Positions 621 to 23,056 of a stretch of 24,211 nt of DNA are shown piece after piece. A program made the position numbers and the translations under genes. Below the pieces are notes generated by a model. It searched no databases. It was not told the origin of the DNA and saw only the letters and a list, made by a program, of their open reading frames with translations. This stretch comes from a virus. The DNA is taken from the IMG/VR virus record IMGVR_UViG_3300044993_000091, positions 1 through 24,211 of that record. One strand, written 5' to 3'. Positions within the stretch are counted from its first letter, which is position 1. Every line of letters starts with the position of its first letter.

Positions 621-2444
621 TTAAAGATAAGCACAGACTGCTTCTATAATAGTTTTTGTAGAAGTCGCATTACGATACAAAGTCATTAATCCTGAAGTGT
701 CTGTTAAATTATTTAAGTAATAAGTAGTTTTGTTGCTAAGGTTTAATACTTTTTGAGCAGACTGAATAAATGCACTTTGATGGTTAGTATTATGAGAAGC
801 ACCAGAAGAACATAGTAAATCTGTATCGCTTGCTGAATTATTTTGAATTGAAAGCGCAGTAGAAAAATACAAGATATCATTAGTGTTCTTATATCCACCT
901 ATAGCATTTACAAAACGCACATTCCACAAACCGATAGGGATTGTAATTGAGGCAGAACCAAGATTATACCACTGGTTCTGAGCTGGTGATATTTGTTCCG
1001 CATTACTATTTGAAGAATATCTAACTGTCCATTTAGTTGGGTCTAACGGGAACCCAACGGGTGCTTTATGAAATGAGTAATAATTATTTGATATTGTCGC
1101 ATTAGCAAGTGTATAATCTGTCCCACCATATACCGTTATTGTCGTGTTTGGCGCTGAATAAGAAACTGCCGTGATAATAAAATACTTAACCGTGCCGCTT
1201 TGAGTTAATTTTATTCTCATTCCAGGAGAATACTTTGATGTTTTATCGCCTGCTACAGTAAAAGTAAAAGTTGGGCTATCTGCTGATGCATAAGTCCAAG
1301 TCTCATTTGCTGGCATCCAACCACCTAAACTTTCAGAAACGATATAAAACTTATTGCCTGAACTATCAAGGATATATTGATTGCCTGATGTATCAACAAA
1401 AATAGTGTTTTTCCCACTTGCTGGGGTTGGGGGAGTGGAGGATTGTTGGGTAAGAGTGATTGTTTGGTCTTTTAACAATACACCATCTATTGTTACCCCA
1501 GCATTTGCTGTTTTTTCGTTTATTGTGTCGGTATATACCTGTTCATCCTTTAATTTTACCCCGTCAACGGTTACGCCATTGTCCGTAGTTTTCTCATTTA
1601 TCGTGTCTACTGCTATTGGATTGCCGAAGCTTTTATTTGTTAGTTCTTGCGTGTCTGACGTTCCGACGATATTTCCTGTTACGCCGTGTGTTGAGGTTTG
1701 CGATGCATGAGATGATACTAACGATGAGGCTGTTCCTGCTGGGTCAAAATCAGATGGAGAATAACCGCTATCTTTTATCAGTTTTCCTGTTGCTCCGTCA
1801 AATGAGGCGAAATTGTTGTTTGTTGAAGATGTTGGACCAACTACATCACCACCGCTTATATCCTCGCCTTTTTGTGCCAACATTTGCCAGTAGGTTGGAT
1901 TTGGCGGCTCTTGGTTAGTGTTTGCTTGAATACAAACGTAAGACGAACCTGAATGTTCTACCGCATCGTCAATTACATAAGACGTTGTATTGCTCCAAGC
2001 ACCTTTCCAGTTTAATCCTTTATCTCCTTGATCTCCCTTATCACCCTTATCACCCTTATCTCCTTGATCTCCCTTATCACCGGATAAGTTTATGTTCCAA
2101 TCGCTATACGTTCCTGAACCTCCGGTGTTGTCAACGTTTATTGTTAGTGATGTTCCTGAATATGAGGTCACGATTCCTTCCATATAGTTTGAAGGGTTAG
2201 AGTCTGATGCTATTCTCAAGCGTGTTCCGTTTGCGTAAGGTTTGCCATCTTGTGTCGTTAGTGTTTTTGAGCCTGTTCCTATTGTCAGCTCTGTTGTTGA
2301 GGTTGCCGCGTAAGATTGAGTTGTTACCTCAGCCAAGACAGCTCCGGTTACCGGATCAACGGATATGTTGGTTGGAGTCTCCAAATCAATGGATGACACC
2401 CCTTGCAACGTTGGAACATAATTTTGGTCTCTTTGTGCTGTCAT
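621..2444 (-). CDS. Tail fibre / appendage protein with collagen-like segment
   Basis: This 607-residue protein is probably a trimeric phage fibre used for host attachment. The N-terminus (about residues 1-45) has a GVSS...VDP.TGAVL pattern shared with the small protein encoded next to it at 2449-2622, and it may anchor the fibre to the virion. Residues of about 125-147 are Gly-X-Y repeats of GDK/GDQ triplets, which form collagen-like triple helices. The middle holds two copies of an INEKT...GVTVDGV.LKD repeat typical of fibre shafts. The C-terminal part is beta-rich and ends in CAYL. The stop is TAA, and the start follows the 57-residue gene by four bases. The family-level call is solid; the receptor and exact position in the virion are not known. 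Confidence 0.88.
   Translation of the reverse strand: MTAQRDQNYVPTLQGVSSIDLETPTNISVDPVTGAVLAEVTTQSYAATSTTELTIGTGSKTLTTQDGKPYANGTRLRIASDSNPSNYMEGIVTSYSGTSLTINVDNTGGSGTYSDWNINLSGDKGDQGDKGDKGDKGDQGDKGLNWKGAWSNTTSYVIDDAVEHSGSSYVCIQANTNQEPPNPTYWQMLAQKGEDISGGDVVGPTSSTNNNFASFDGATGKLIKDSGYSPSDFDPAGTASSLVSSHASQTSTHGVTGNIVGTSDTQELTNKSFGNPIAVDTINEKTTDNGVTVDGVKLKDEQVYTDTINEKTANAGVTIDGVLLKDQTITLTQQSSTPPTPASGKNTIFVDTSGNQYILDSSGNKFYIVSESLGGWMPANETWTYASADSPTFTFTVAGDKTSKYSPGMRIKLTQSGTVKYFIITAVSYSAPNTTITVYGGTDYTLANATISNNYYSFHKAPVGFPLDPTKWTVRYSSNSNAEQISPAQNQWYNLGSASITIPIGLWNVRFVNAIGGYKNTNDILYFSTALSIQNNSASDTDLLCSSGASHNTNHQSAFIQSAQKVLNLSNKTTYYLNNLTDTSGLMTLYRNATSTKTIIEAVCAYL
2016..2081 (-). repeat. Collagen-like Gly-X-Y repeat in the fibre gene
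   Basis: Seven full Gly-Asp-Lys/Gln triplets in tandem, encoded by near-identical 9-base units (GGTGATAAG and GGAGATCAA types). The low-complexity DNA could change length by slippage, which would alter fibre length without a frameshift. Confidence 0.85.
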
Positions 2445-10268: not shown

Positions 10269-10292
10269 TTTATTTTTTAACTTCTAACTTAG

Positions 10293-10363
10293 CAGACAAG
10301 GTAGGACTTGAACCTACACCAACGACTTTGGAGGTCGTTATGCTGTCTTTACACCACTTGCCC
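10293..10363 (-). tRNA. trnW: tRNA-Trp (anticodon CCA)
   Basis: The 71-base minus-strand gene folds as a full cloverleaf. The acceptor is GGGCAAG/CTTGTCT (two G-U pairs), the D stem GTGT/GCAT, the anticodon stem ACGAC/GTCGT with loop CTCCAAA (anticodon CCA, reads UGG), the T stem GTAGG/CCTAC with loop TTCAAGT, and the discriminator is G73 as expected for bacterial tRNA-Trp. The 3' CCA is not encoded. Oddities: the D loop AAAGACA has no GG pair, which normally docks to the T loop. The D stem has a U11-A24 pair, the pair created by the Hirsh UGA-suppressor change in E. coli tRNA-Trp, though it is also natural in some bacteria. It lies in a small-gene operon between the genes at 10526 and 10268. 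Confidence 0.9.
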
Positions 10364-15854: not shown

Positions 15855-16172
15855 TTAACTTTTATAATATTCCCCATCGTTCCAGACGTACTTTGCGTTT
15901 TTTATATCCTCCTCGCTTGGTTTTATTCCTTTCGTGCCGTATTGTTCCAAATATTCTTTTGATAATACTCCGTCTCTGTATGGTTGGATTATGTCTTTTT
16001 TGTATACCTTTCTTGCTTCTTTTATTTGCTCGCTTGTGAACTCAACCTGCCGTTTTGGTTTTGGTATCTTTCTTGCTTCCTCTTGACAACTTTTGCACGG
16101 CAAATAACCGAAATTTTCCGAAAATTCCGCTTTTTCCTTTCCACAGATTATGCACAATTTATCATTTTTCAT
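15855..16172 (-). CDS. Zinc-ribbon protein (105 aa)
   Basis: The first 30 residues contain C-I-I-C and C-K-S-C (about residues 7-10 and 26-29), a classic zinc ribbon as in small DksA/TraR- or HNH-associated proteins. A basic linker (RKIPKPKRQVEF) and a helical C-terminal domain with EQIKEARKVYKKDIIQPYRD follow. The ATG overlaps the end of groEL by 11 bases, so it belongs to the chaperonin operon. No catalytic motif is seen. DNA- or RNA-polymerase binding is possible but not shown. Confidence 0.75.
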   Translation of the reverse strand: MKNDKLCIICGKEKAEFSENFGYLPCKSCQEEARKIPKPKRQVEFTSEQIKEARKVYKKDIIQPYRDGVLSKEYLEQYGTKGIKPSEEDIKNAKYVWNDGEYYKS

Positions 16173-17736
16173 CTTTTGGACGATTGGGAACGATTAAAGC
16201 GTTTGTCGTTATAAGTTGTATGGCCACACTTACCGCATTTTTTATTGCCTGAATTGGGACGGCCACCGGATCTATTATTCCTGCTTTTATCATATCCTTA
16301 ACTTTACCGTCAATAACGTCTATTCCGTAGTTTTTCTTTATTTTTTTCATATCAATTTCTAATCCTGATAAATCTATCCCGGCGTTTTTGATAAGAAGCT
16401 GAAATGGCTCCTCTAAGACATCGTATAAGATAGGATTGTCAAAGATTTTATCCCGGACTTGAAGGTAGGATATCTCACCACCGGGAACTATTCCGTTTAA
16501 CATTGCCATTCTTGTTGCCGCGACAGCATCAAGAACTCTCTCTTTTCTTTCCTTCATTTCAATTTCCGTTTGTCCGCCTACCTTTATTAAGGCGACTCCA
16601 TTTGATAGTTTGGCCAGCCTTTCCCTCATTTTCTCACGATTGTATTCGGATGTTTCCGGGTCGTTTATTTGCTGTCTTAGATAGTTTACCCTTGCTTCAA
16701 TTGTATCTTTTGCCGATTTTTTTCCAACGATAATCGTTGCGTTTTTTGTTGATTTTACATATTCAGCTATTCCTATATCCTCAATTTTTACGTCTCTGAG
16801 GCTTCGTCCGGCTTCTTTTGATACCAACCTCCCGCCGGTTACAATGGATATATCCTCCAAGATTGCTCGCTGATATTCTCCAAATGATGGCGCTTGAACA
16901 CATAATGTAACGAATATGTTTTGAAGTTTTGAAGCAACAAGAGAAGGTAGCGCATCACCGCCGAAGTCCGGCGCGATTATTACCAGTTGCTTTGACCTTT
17001 GAGCATATTCTTTTTCAATGAACTCAGCCAGTTCCATTATGTTTGTCACCGGTATATCTGTTACCAAAACTCCTACATTCTGATGTGTTGCCGTCATCGT
17101 TTGTGGATCGGTTATGAAATATGGCGAGAAATAACCTTTGTCTATCTGCATACCTTCTTGGTGCTCAACGACCGTCTCCGTTCCTTTTGACTCCTCAACG
17201 GTCACCACTCCGTCCTTGCCGACTGTTTTTAGAGTTTTTGCGATTAACTCTCCCAATTCCTCATCCTCTGCCGATATTGTTGCTACTTGCTTTATCTCCT
17301 CGTATGTTTTTATCGGCATTGCTATTTTTTGTAGCTCGTTTGTTAGTTTTTTTGCTCCTTCCTCAAAGGTTTTCCGAAGCGCCATTGGGTTATCTCCTTT
17401 TTTTATTCTTTTTAGGCTTTCGTTTATAATGCTTTTTGCCAGAACTATAACGGCCGTTGTTCCGTCACCTACCTCATCCACTTGTTTTTGCGCCGCCTGA
17501 CGAAGAATTGCTGCTCCTAAATTTTCAAATTCATCTTCCGGATCAACAAACTTTGCGACAGTTACCCCATCGTGAACAACTACTCGCTCGTAGATTTCAC
17601 CTTTTGGATCTGCTTTTGCGATTGCTACATTTCGTCCTCTTGGTCCTAAAGTTGTTCCAACCGCCTTTGCGACCAGATTAACTCCCCTGTAAATTTTCTC
17701 TCGTGCCTCATCATCAAAGATTATTTGAGTCCTCAT
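16162..17736 (-). CDS. groEL: Chaperonin GroEL (phage-encoded)
   Basis: At 524 residues it is near full length (E. coli has 548). The ATP site is conserved: GTTLGPRGRNV at 27-37 and GDGTT at 90-94. The apical region EGMQIDKGYFSPYFITDP is recognisable, and the later nucleotide-binding DAVAATRMAMLNGIVPGGE region is present with GGE in place of the usual GGG. The C-terminal Gly-Gly-Met tail is missing; the protein ends RPKDEK. It overlaps groES by 23 bases, as an operon. Phage GroEL probably folds capsid or other virion proteins. The stop UGA is followed immediately by UAA. Confidence 0.96.
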   Translation of the reverse strand: MRTQIIFDDEAREKIYRGVNLVAKAVGTTLGPRGRNVAIAKADPKGEIYERVVVHDGVTVAKFVDPEDEFENLGAAILRQAAQKQVDEVGDGTTAVIVLAKSIINESLKRIKKGDNPMALRKTFEEGAKKLTNELQKIAMPIKTYEEIKQVATISAEDEELGELIAKTLKTVGKDGVVTVEESKGTETVVEHQEGMQIDKGYFSPYFITDPQTMTATHQNVGVLVTDIPVTNIMELAEFIEKEYAQRSKQLVIIAPDFGGDALPSLVASKLQNIFVTLCVQAPSFGEYQRAILEDISIVTGGRLVSKEAGRSLRDVKIEDIGIAEYVKSTKNATIIVGKKSAKDTIEARVNYLRQQINDPETSEYNREKMRERLAKLSNGVALIKVGGQTEIEMKERKERVLDAVAATRMAMLNGIVPGGEISYLQVRDKIFDNPILYDVLEEPFQLLIKNAGIDLSGLEIDMKKIKKNYGIDVIDGKVKDMIKAGIIDPVAVPIQAIKNAVSVAIQLITTNALIVPNRPKDEK

Positions 17737-18025
17737 ATTTTCCTAAAATATTGCCAAATTTTAACAACCGGTATTCATCAAAGTTTATTTTTACCGTCTC
17801 ATATCCTATTGATGCGTGGAGGATTACATCACCCGGCTTATATTCTGTTGTGTAGGGTTTGCCGTTAAACTCCCCAATTGTTGGTTTTCCAACAGCGATA
17901 ATTTTTGCTTTTCGTGCCGTTTTTTCCTCCTGTTTTATTACAAGTGATGTAGCTTTATCTTCCGCCTCCATTGGTTTGGCGAGAATGTATCCCGGAGCCG
18001 GTGTTAGTGGTACTTTACCAGACAT
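17714..18025 (-). CDS. groES: Co-chaperonin GroES (phage-encoded)
   Basis: At 103 residues it is of family length, with PLTPAPGYILAKPMEAEDKA for the first strand and mobile loop region, GDVILHASIGYETVKINFDE for the roof and core, and YRLLKFGNILGKYE at the end. The mobile-loop tripeptide that touches GroEL appears as LVI (TSLVIKQEEK) where many bacteria have I-V-L after two glycines, which may reflect co-evolution with the adjacent phage GroEL. Its end runs over the groEL start, with three UGA codons in a row closing the frame. The preceding basic gene overlaps its start by 11 bases. Confidence 0.94.
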   Translation of the reverse strand: MSGKVPLTPAPGYILAKPMEAEDKATSLVIKQEEKTARKAKIIAVGKPTIGEFNGKPYTTEYKPGDVILHASIGYETVKINFDEYRLLKFGNILGKYEDSNNL

Positions 18026-21179: not shown

Positions 21180-21506
21180 CTAAATTTTACTTTTGATTAC
21201 ATACCCCAAATATTCTATCACTTTTACCATTCCATTTTCATCTCTAAACGGAGCGTTATTATCATTCTCTGGAACGATATTTTCGTTATCATACCGAACA
21301 TACTGGTATCTTTCCTTCGGCTTCATTTTGGCCAGACCAAGTGCCGTTTGAAAGACTGTCGCAAAGATTTCCTCTGGTAGTTGCTCACCTTCATTTGCCT
21401 CGTGGTATTCAATTAACGGTATTTTTCCGTTTTTGAATTGGTTTATCTCAACAAAAGATTTAGACCCACGATGCCAAGTAAATCTTAGATTTTTTGGTAT
21501 TTCCAT
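21180..21506 (-). CDS. Unknown protein following the tail fibre (108 aa)
   Basis: It begins MEIPKNLRFTWHRGSKSFVE and has a mixed alpha-beta composition with IPLIEYHEANEGEQLPEEIF and a C-terminal VKVIEYLGYVIKSKI strand region. There are no cysteines or membrane segments. Its ATG overlaps the TAA that closes the frame beyond the fibre UGA (TAATG). That is an operon-style junction placed exactly where the full-length fibre would end, and it supports the idea that the longer fibre is the ancestral form. It may be a fibre chaperone or accessory by position. No family recognised. Confidence 0.7.
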   Translation of the reverse strand: MEIPKNLRFTWHRGSKSFVEINQFKNGKIPLIEYHEANEGEQLPEEIFATVFQTALGLAKMKPKERYQYVRYDNENIVPENDNNAPFRDENGMVKVIEYLGYVIKSKI

Positions 21507-21811
21507 TATCTACTTAATGATTTTAACTTCAAAGAAAAGAAATCAATTCTCAAATCTCTTGCTGTTGTTGATGTTGGAATAATTTGAAAGAATGGGTGAA
21601 GCCCAGTTGACGACGAAGGAATGTTTGTTGTGAGAGTCGCTTCTGAACCACCATCTACTTGAAATCCTATTGTTGATGAGTTTATTGCTCTTATTCTAAA
21701 TGTGTGAAAATTAGTATCCTGCGATAAAAGAGAAGAAGTTATTGTTTGAGAGGAAGATGCTCTTGTTAAACCATAAAAAATGTTATCGGTATTGAGTCTT
21801 TGAAAATATAA
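21506..21811 (-). other. In-frame continuation of the tail fibre after UGA (101 codons)
   Basis: Directly after the UGA at 21814-21812 the same frame continues for 101 sense codons to TAA at 21508-21506. The sequence starts LYFQRLNTDNIFYGLTRASS, has TNFHTFRIRAINSSTIGFQV and ends FFSLKLKSLSR. It reads as the second half of a beta-sandwich (lectin/LamG-like) domain whose first half is the end of the upstream frame. The UGA falls in PPAN-x-LYF, where related phage proteins commonly have Gly or another residue before an I/V/L-Y-F strand, and where Trp would also fit. GGA or TGG is one base from TGA. Whether it is translated by readthrough is unknown. Confidence 0.75.
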
Positions 21812-23056
21812 TCAGTTAGCTGGTGGATTTGATGAAACATTATCGGATAGACCAAATTTAACTGAAAAATCTGTGCCAGTTGTAACTAAGGAAACAGAGA
21901 AATAAACAGTATCAAACTCACTCTTCAAAAATGAAGGAGTTGAAGCAGAAGCGGATAAATACATATAAGCAACCTGATTAGCTGTTGTTCCGCTTCTTAA
22001 TGTAATAACTCCTGGTCTATTTGCTGATGAAGATGTTGCCACGATTGAACCATTAGCAAATGACCAACCCAACTCCCCTATCTCTCCAGTTTCGGTAGAT
22101 TGTGCGAAAAAATCATCATAAATAATAGGTGCTGTTGATGGAAGTGTCGGGTCTGAACCACCCGCAACTTCCCAGCTTACATTTGTACCGTTTGTAGTTA
22201 AGAATTTACCAGCATTGCCAGACTGACTTGGTAATACTTGGTTAGCAGTAACATTGTGAGGATTTGAAGTATTGTTGATATGACTATCTAAATCTGATTG
22301 ATTTGCTTTGAGATTAAGTGCCGTTTGGGTAGCGGTTGAGATTGGTTTATCTAAATCGGAAGTATTATCTACATTTTCCAACCCTAAATCTGCTTTTGTG
22401 ACATTATGAGGATTTCCTGATGTCAGTTGTGAGTGGTCGTATGCTACTTTCCCTCTATCACCCCTATAAGCAGTTGACGAGGTTTCACCTAATGCTAAAC
22501 TCGGTGATATTTCAACATAAGTAGTTCCCGACCAACGATAACTTAAATTTGTATCAAGAGCAATGTATATTTTTCCAGTCTCTCCTGTTTCAGGAAAAGA
22601 TGATAAATCATCATACTCCAAAACATCGTCAACATAAGAAGGTAATTGAGACGATAAAATTTTTCCATTTTCATCAAGTTCTGCTACTCCATTTGCTGTT
22701 CCTTTTTGACTTAATGGTATTTGAGCATCATTGGTAACATTGCCAAGCCCTATTTGTGATTTTGTAACGTTGTGAGGATTGTCGGTTCTTACATCGTGAT
22801 CACCATCAGTTATCTTATCAAGTTCTATCTTATTAGAATGAGTATGAGATTGATTAATTGCAGTTTTTACTTCTAATGCGGTTGAAGTATTTGTTCCGTC
22901 TGATACAGTTTCGGAAGCATCAACTATTCCGTCATTATCCGTGTCATAAACGGATTTTGTCATATCACCACTACTGGGAATTATTCCTTCAATATCAGAG
23001 ACATTATGTTTATGCGATAATGGCTCACCTAATATTTTATCAACAGTTATTCCCAT
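21812..23056 (-). CDS. Tail fibre protein with NPHNVTK repeats, ended by a suspicious UGA
   Basis: The 414-codon frame starts MGITVDKILGEPLSHKHNVS. It carries repeated shaft motifs: DNPHNVTKSQIGLGNVTND, GNPHNVTKADLGLENVDNT and SNPHNVTANQVLP, the hallmark repeats of long tail fibres, with SHTHS-type His motifs that can bind iron in trimeric fibres. A YVDDVLEYDDLSSFPETGE segment (GKIYIALDTNLSYRWSG) is a common fibre insert. From about residue 300 a lectin-like domain begins (IIYDDFFAQSTETGEIGELG) but is cut in mid-domain by UGA. The coding potential continues to 21506 in the same frame. The start is one base after the MazG stop. Confidence 0.9.
   Translation of the reverse strand: MGITVDKILGEPLSHKHNVSDIEGIIPSSGDMTKSVYDTDNDGIVDASETVSDGTNTSTALEVKTAINQSHTHSNKIELDKITDGDHDVRTDNPHNVTKSQIGLGNVTNDAQIPLSQKGTANGVAELDENGKILSSQLPSYVDDVLEYDDLSSFPETGETGKIYIALDTNLSYRWSGTTYVEISPSLALGETSSTAYRGDRGKVAYDHSQLTSGNPHNVTKADLGLENVDNTSDLDKPISTATQTALNLKANQSDLDSHINNTSNPHNVTANQVLPSQSGNAGKFLTTNGTNVSWEVAGGSDPTLPSTAPIIYDDFFAQSTETGEIGELGWSFANGSIVATSSSANRPGVITLRSGTTANQVAYMYLSASASTPSFLKSEFDTVYFSVSLVTTGTDFSVKFGLSDNVSSNPPAN

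Follow-up and report, generated by a model that had tools for sequence, protein, structure and literature searches.

In phage Q-beta, the read-through coat protein A1 is produced across an in-frame UGA that is followed by a long open frame, and the coat domain is already complete when the UGA is reached. Reassignment of UGA to glycine (code 25) is described for Gracilibacteria, Absconditabacteria and their phages. Two lineages of Patescibacteria read UGA as Gly (PMC4032931), and for these lineages both code-25 phages and phages compatible with code 11 have been described, the code-25 phages being dense in in-frame TGA (PMC10746230). The locus reported here was compared with these systems and with the SO2946-like C-terminal domain (PF22237), represented by the crystal structure 2a5z of Shewanella oneidensis SO2946.

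The analysed window is a linear virus record of 24,211 bases. On its minus strand a tail-fibre gene begins with the ATG at 23056 and is open for 414 codons (21812..23056; open reading frame with PHROG tail-fibre matches), which encode fibre-shaft repeats and the first half of a lectin-like domain. It is then interrupted by an in-frame UGA at 21812..21814 (minus strand; context AAC UGA UUA), a position occupied by Gly in homologues. Past the UGA the same frame continues for 101 protein-like sense codons (21506..21811, minus strand), which hold the second half of the domain, and closes with a TAA at 21508-21506 that overlaps the next ATG as TAATG. The original prediction had described this arrangement, and all of its coordinates were confirmed. 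The UGA is likely to be a lone nonsense change in a fibre gene that is intact elsewhere, present either in a real mutant or through an assembly or consensus error.

With the region described by a first-order Markov model, the chance of 101 successive codons without a stop is about 0.0015. GC content by codon position was nearly equal before and after the UGA (0.38/0.51/0.17 and 0.30/0.49/0.20, respectively), and the remaining two frames contain 10 and 5 stops. The downstream half is undegraded, with no further stop and no frameshift. The change is judged either to be so recent that the gene shows no other decay, or to be a consensus error. That it is recent, that the product lacks function, and which of mutation and error produced it are inferences from a single contig.

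When the UGA was translated as a residue, the Pfam profile of the lectin/glucanase-like beta-sandwich SO2946-like_C (PF22237) matched 21542..22021 (minus strand) at 39-42 bits, residues 346-505 covering profile positions 1-163 of 163. The truncated protein scored 19 bits, under the curated Pfam cut-off of 27 bits. The profile thus passes its cut-off only when the UGA is read, which bears out the earlier claim that the codon cuts a beta-sandwich domain in half. Against a profile built from homologues only, the part after the UGA scored 44.9 bits and the part before it 35.3 bits, while shuffled downstream halves reached at most 5.9 bits; the stretch after the UGA is thus truly the other half of this domain. 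In no other gene of the window does reading past the stop extend a recognisable domain; the others run into noise or an adjoining gene. The read-through domain was modelled with AlphaFold2 at modest confidence (pLDDT 62), and the model matched lectin- and glucanase-like sandwiches, with 2a5z among the best (TM-score 0.67). A phmmer search against PDB sequences returned no match.

Homologues of the domain were drawn from Patescibacteria and Planctomycetota genomes, phage Pan5 and IMG/VR. Of the 13 homologues aligned, 11 had Gly in the column of the UGA, within sequences like TDGMYF, TDGAYF, SDGIYF or VSGVWW; those without Gly were one partial and one weak match. None of the 13 had a stop in this column, and the PF22237 matches in Patescibacteria or Planctomycetota genomes contained no internal stop. 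All other copies of PF22237 that were found are open, in contrast to the phage copy with its UGA at a conserved glycine. Since the aligned homologues carry Gly at this column, the residue lost was very probably Gly. GGA, the commonest glycine codon of the phage, is a single base change from UGA. The comparison of UGA with a GGA or TGG codon in relatives, which had been proposed as a check, thus found a sense codon, and at the level of these remote homologues it favours an ordinary nonsense change. Searches of IMG/VR with the domain, with a DNA pattern carrying NNN at the stop and with the downstream open reading frame gave no near-identical contigs or close fibre tips, and searches of phage and plasmid records found nothing either. 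Relatives identified by the portal and by the shaft repeats were without an SO2946-like_C domain.

The phage probably infects Patescibacteria, as its portal relatives and nearest named phages point there. The portal relatives, at 41-56% identity, are phages of Patescibacteria, and the nearest named phages are a TM7 phage and a contig of 39.8 kb from a Patescibacteria MAG. One contig of 39.8 kb (L053; PHFX01000165.1), whose portal is 49% identical to that of the phage, is binned in a Candidatus Brocadia MAG and is probably a mis-binned Patescibacteria phage. The small phage genome also carries a groES-groEL pair at 16162-18025 (minus strand). The relatives L010, L011, L015, L051, L052 and L054 also have groEL-like genes, and the pair seems to be a regular trait of this group of Patescibacteria phages. 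A second fibre gene at 621-2444 (minus strand) is intact; it includes a collagen-like segment, GDKGDQGDKG, and matches CBM5/12 weakly. Exact TATAAT sequences start 8-13 bases before five ATGs (5481, 7573, 7843, 15549 and 18893, minus strand), where about 0.2 would be expected by chance over all genes. Leaderless mRNAs are therefore probable for these five genes.

Where a phage of Patescibacteria has UGA in place of a conserved Gly, code 25 readily suggests itself; caution is needed here, since the rest of the contig contradicts it. UGA terminates ten other genes of the window, so the earlier statement that other genes end in UGA stands, and a code 25 or code 4 for the whole phage was ruled out on this ground. 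Three of these UGA stops lie in start/stop overlaps of the form ATGA (10059/10056, 19288/19285 and 23820/23817). The groES, groEL, DUF1064 and DUF5658 genes have their UGA where the domain ends or close to it: in groES the Cpn10 domain is full-length, reaching position 93 of 93 in the profile, and the gene closes with UGA-UGA-UGA inside the groEL start. Reading through UGA would lengthen groES by 12 residues and DUF5658 by 56. In-frame UGA is absent from the large genes of the window. UGA is a true stop in this phage, whose code is the standard one, and the overlaps and the groES and DUF5658 ends agree with the original view that UGA has not been generally reassigned.

A narrower form of the same idea is that Patescibacteria with UGA as Gly (Gracilibacteria or Absconditabacteria) at times host the phage, or only its fibre module, and would translate the codon as such. 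The Gly of the homologues and the Patescibacteria phages among the portal relatives fit this, as does the existence of both code-25 and code-11-compatible phages for such hosts. Set against them, the genes of the window contain 1 in-frame UGA and about 460 GGN glycine codons, whereas code-25 phages are dense in TGA (PMC10746230), and the ten UGA-ended genes, with their ATGA overlaps and the extensions that groES and DUF5658 would acquire, speak for stops throughout the window. A glycine origin is moreover not a rare event for a random change, as, among the 80 single-base changes that turn codons of the fibre gene into TGA, 15 (19%) start at GGA. A conflict of codes is accordingly considered very unlikely.

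Selenocysteine insertion was also considered, as it usually is when a bacterial-type gene contains UGA in frame. The Rfam scan recognised no element except tRNA, and no SECIS; no stable structure followed the UGA (MFE z-scores +0.5 and +1.3), and the homologues carry Gly, not Cys. The missing SECIS and the aligned Gly refute this candidate in practice, and its probability is negligible.

The remaining alternative is regulated or tolerated read-through, in which most fibres would end at the UGA and a few percent would be extended by a near-cognate tRNA-Trp, perhaps the A24 tRNA of the phage itself, giving a mixed fibre like that with Q-beta A1. As in Q-beta, both chains would share their N terminus, and the downstream half, at 44.9 bits, is intact. 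The fibre UGA differs from that of Q-beta in cutting a domain in two: it falls shortly after position 64 of 163 of the PF22237 profile and opens strand 7 of 13 in the AlphaFold2 model, so that neither a complete short product nor a stop at a domain border was found. The leaky context was likewise missing. The base after the UGA (+4) is U, and UGA followed by U generally terminates efficiently in E. coli; the z-scores and the Rfam scan revealed no stimulatory structure.

The tRNA-Trp (CCA) of the phage lies at 10292..10363 (minus strand). It has U11-A24 and G3-U70 pairs, the latter resembling an alanine identity pair, and its 3' CCA is not encoded. No tRNA-Trp was found at the relatives' loci. 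The sampled tRNA-Trp genes of Patescibacteria have C11-G24 in 13 of 13 cases, in contrast to the phage gene. The ordinary tRNA-Trp of B. subtilis also has A24. UGA read-through of about 6% has been reported for B. subtilis (as cited in PMC6316719). A24 is the base of the Hirsh UGA suppressor, in which G24A promotes UGA reading, while in E. coli the over-expression of an ordinary tRNA-Trp with a 5-bp stem left UGA read-through unraised (PMC13092985). The anticodon stem of the phage tRNA is complete, with an outer A-U pair added by ARAGORN. The suggestion that a phage-borne tRNA-Trp could raise read-through is therefore weakened by the complete stem and by the lack of effect of the ordinary tRNA, and retains the Hirsh base in its favour. 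During infection, an A24 tRNA-Trp may possibly cause low-level read-through at all UGA stops of the phage, which would not be specific to the fibre.

The oddity of this tRNA is the one positive point for programmed read-through by tRNA-Trp. Such read-through is disfavoured because neither a hairpin nor a SECIS is present, U occupies the +4 position, the stop interrupts the domain rather than marking its edge, and the expected residue is Gly, not Trp; with Gly in the homologues, insertion of Trp would not restore the native protein. Ten other genes also need UGA as a stop. Regulated or tolerated read-through is accordingly regarded as unlikely. Among the origins offered in the original prediction, a recent nonsense mutation or a read error is favoured and leaky read-through is not.

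Under the preferred explanation of an isolated nonsense change, the gene would encode a 516-residue tail fibre ending in the SO2946-like_C beta-sandwich, and a single nonsense codon, one base from GGA, would have arisen at the conserved glycine of that domain. In a host with the standard code, the ribosome would stop at the UGA and release a fibre without a folded C-terminal domain. The change would stem either from a loss-of-function mutation that arose very recently in the phage population or from an error in the consensus of the metagenome contig. An inverted repeat, TCAGTTA ... TAACTGA, lies at 21865-21812 (minus strand), its second arm including the UGA. A template switch at this repeat is a conceivable origin of the change; the pairing is not clearly above chance, as 18 of 200 shuffles folded equally well.

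The stop would also affect the next gene. A 108-aa open reading frame at 21180..21506 (minus strand; from the list of open reading frames) had no match in searches for families and relatives. As its start overlaps the fibre TAA in TAATG, its translation is probably coupled to that of the full-length fibre. Termination at the UGA would then uncouple it, and its translation may be weaker.

It is unlikely that the UGA is truly translated, as Gly in a second, Patescibacteria host with UGA as Gly or as Trp by the A24 tRNA-Trp of the phage, so that display of the fibre tip would depend on decoding by the host or the phage. If this were true, read-through would act as a host-dependent switch of the receptor-binding tip, and it would offer a route for testing decoding in uncultured Patescibacteria.
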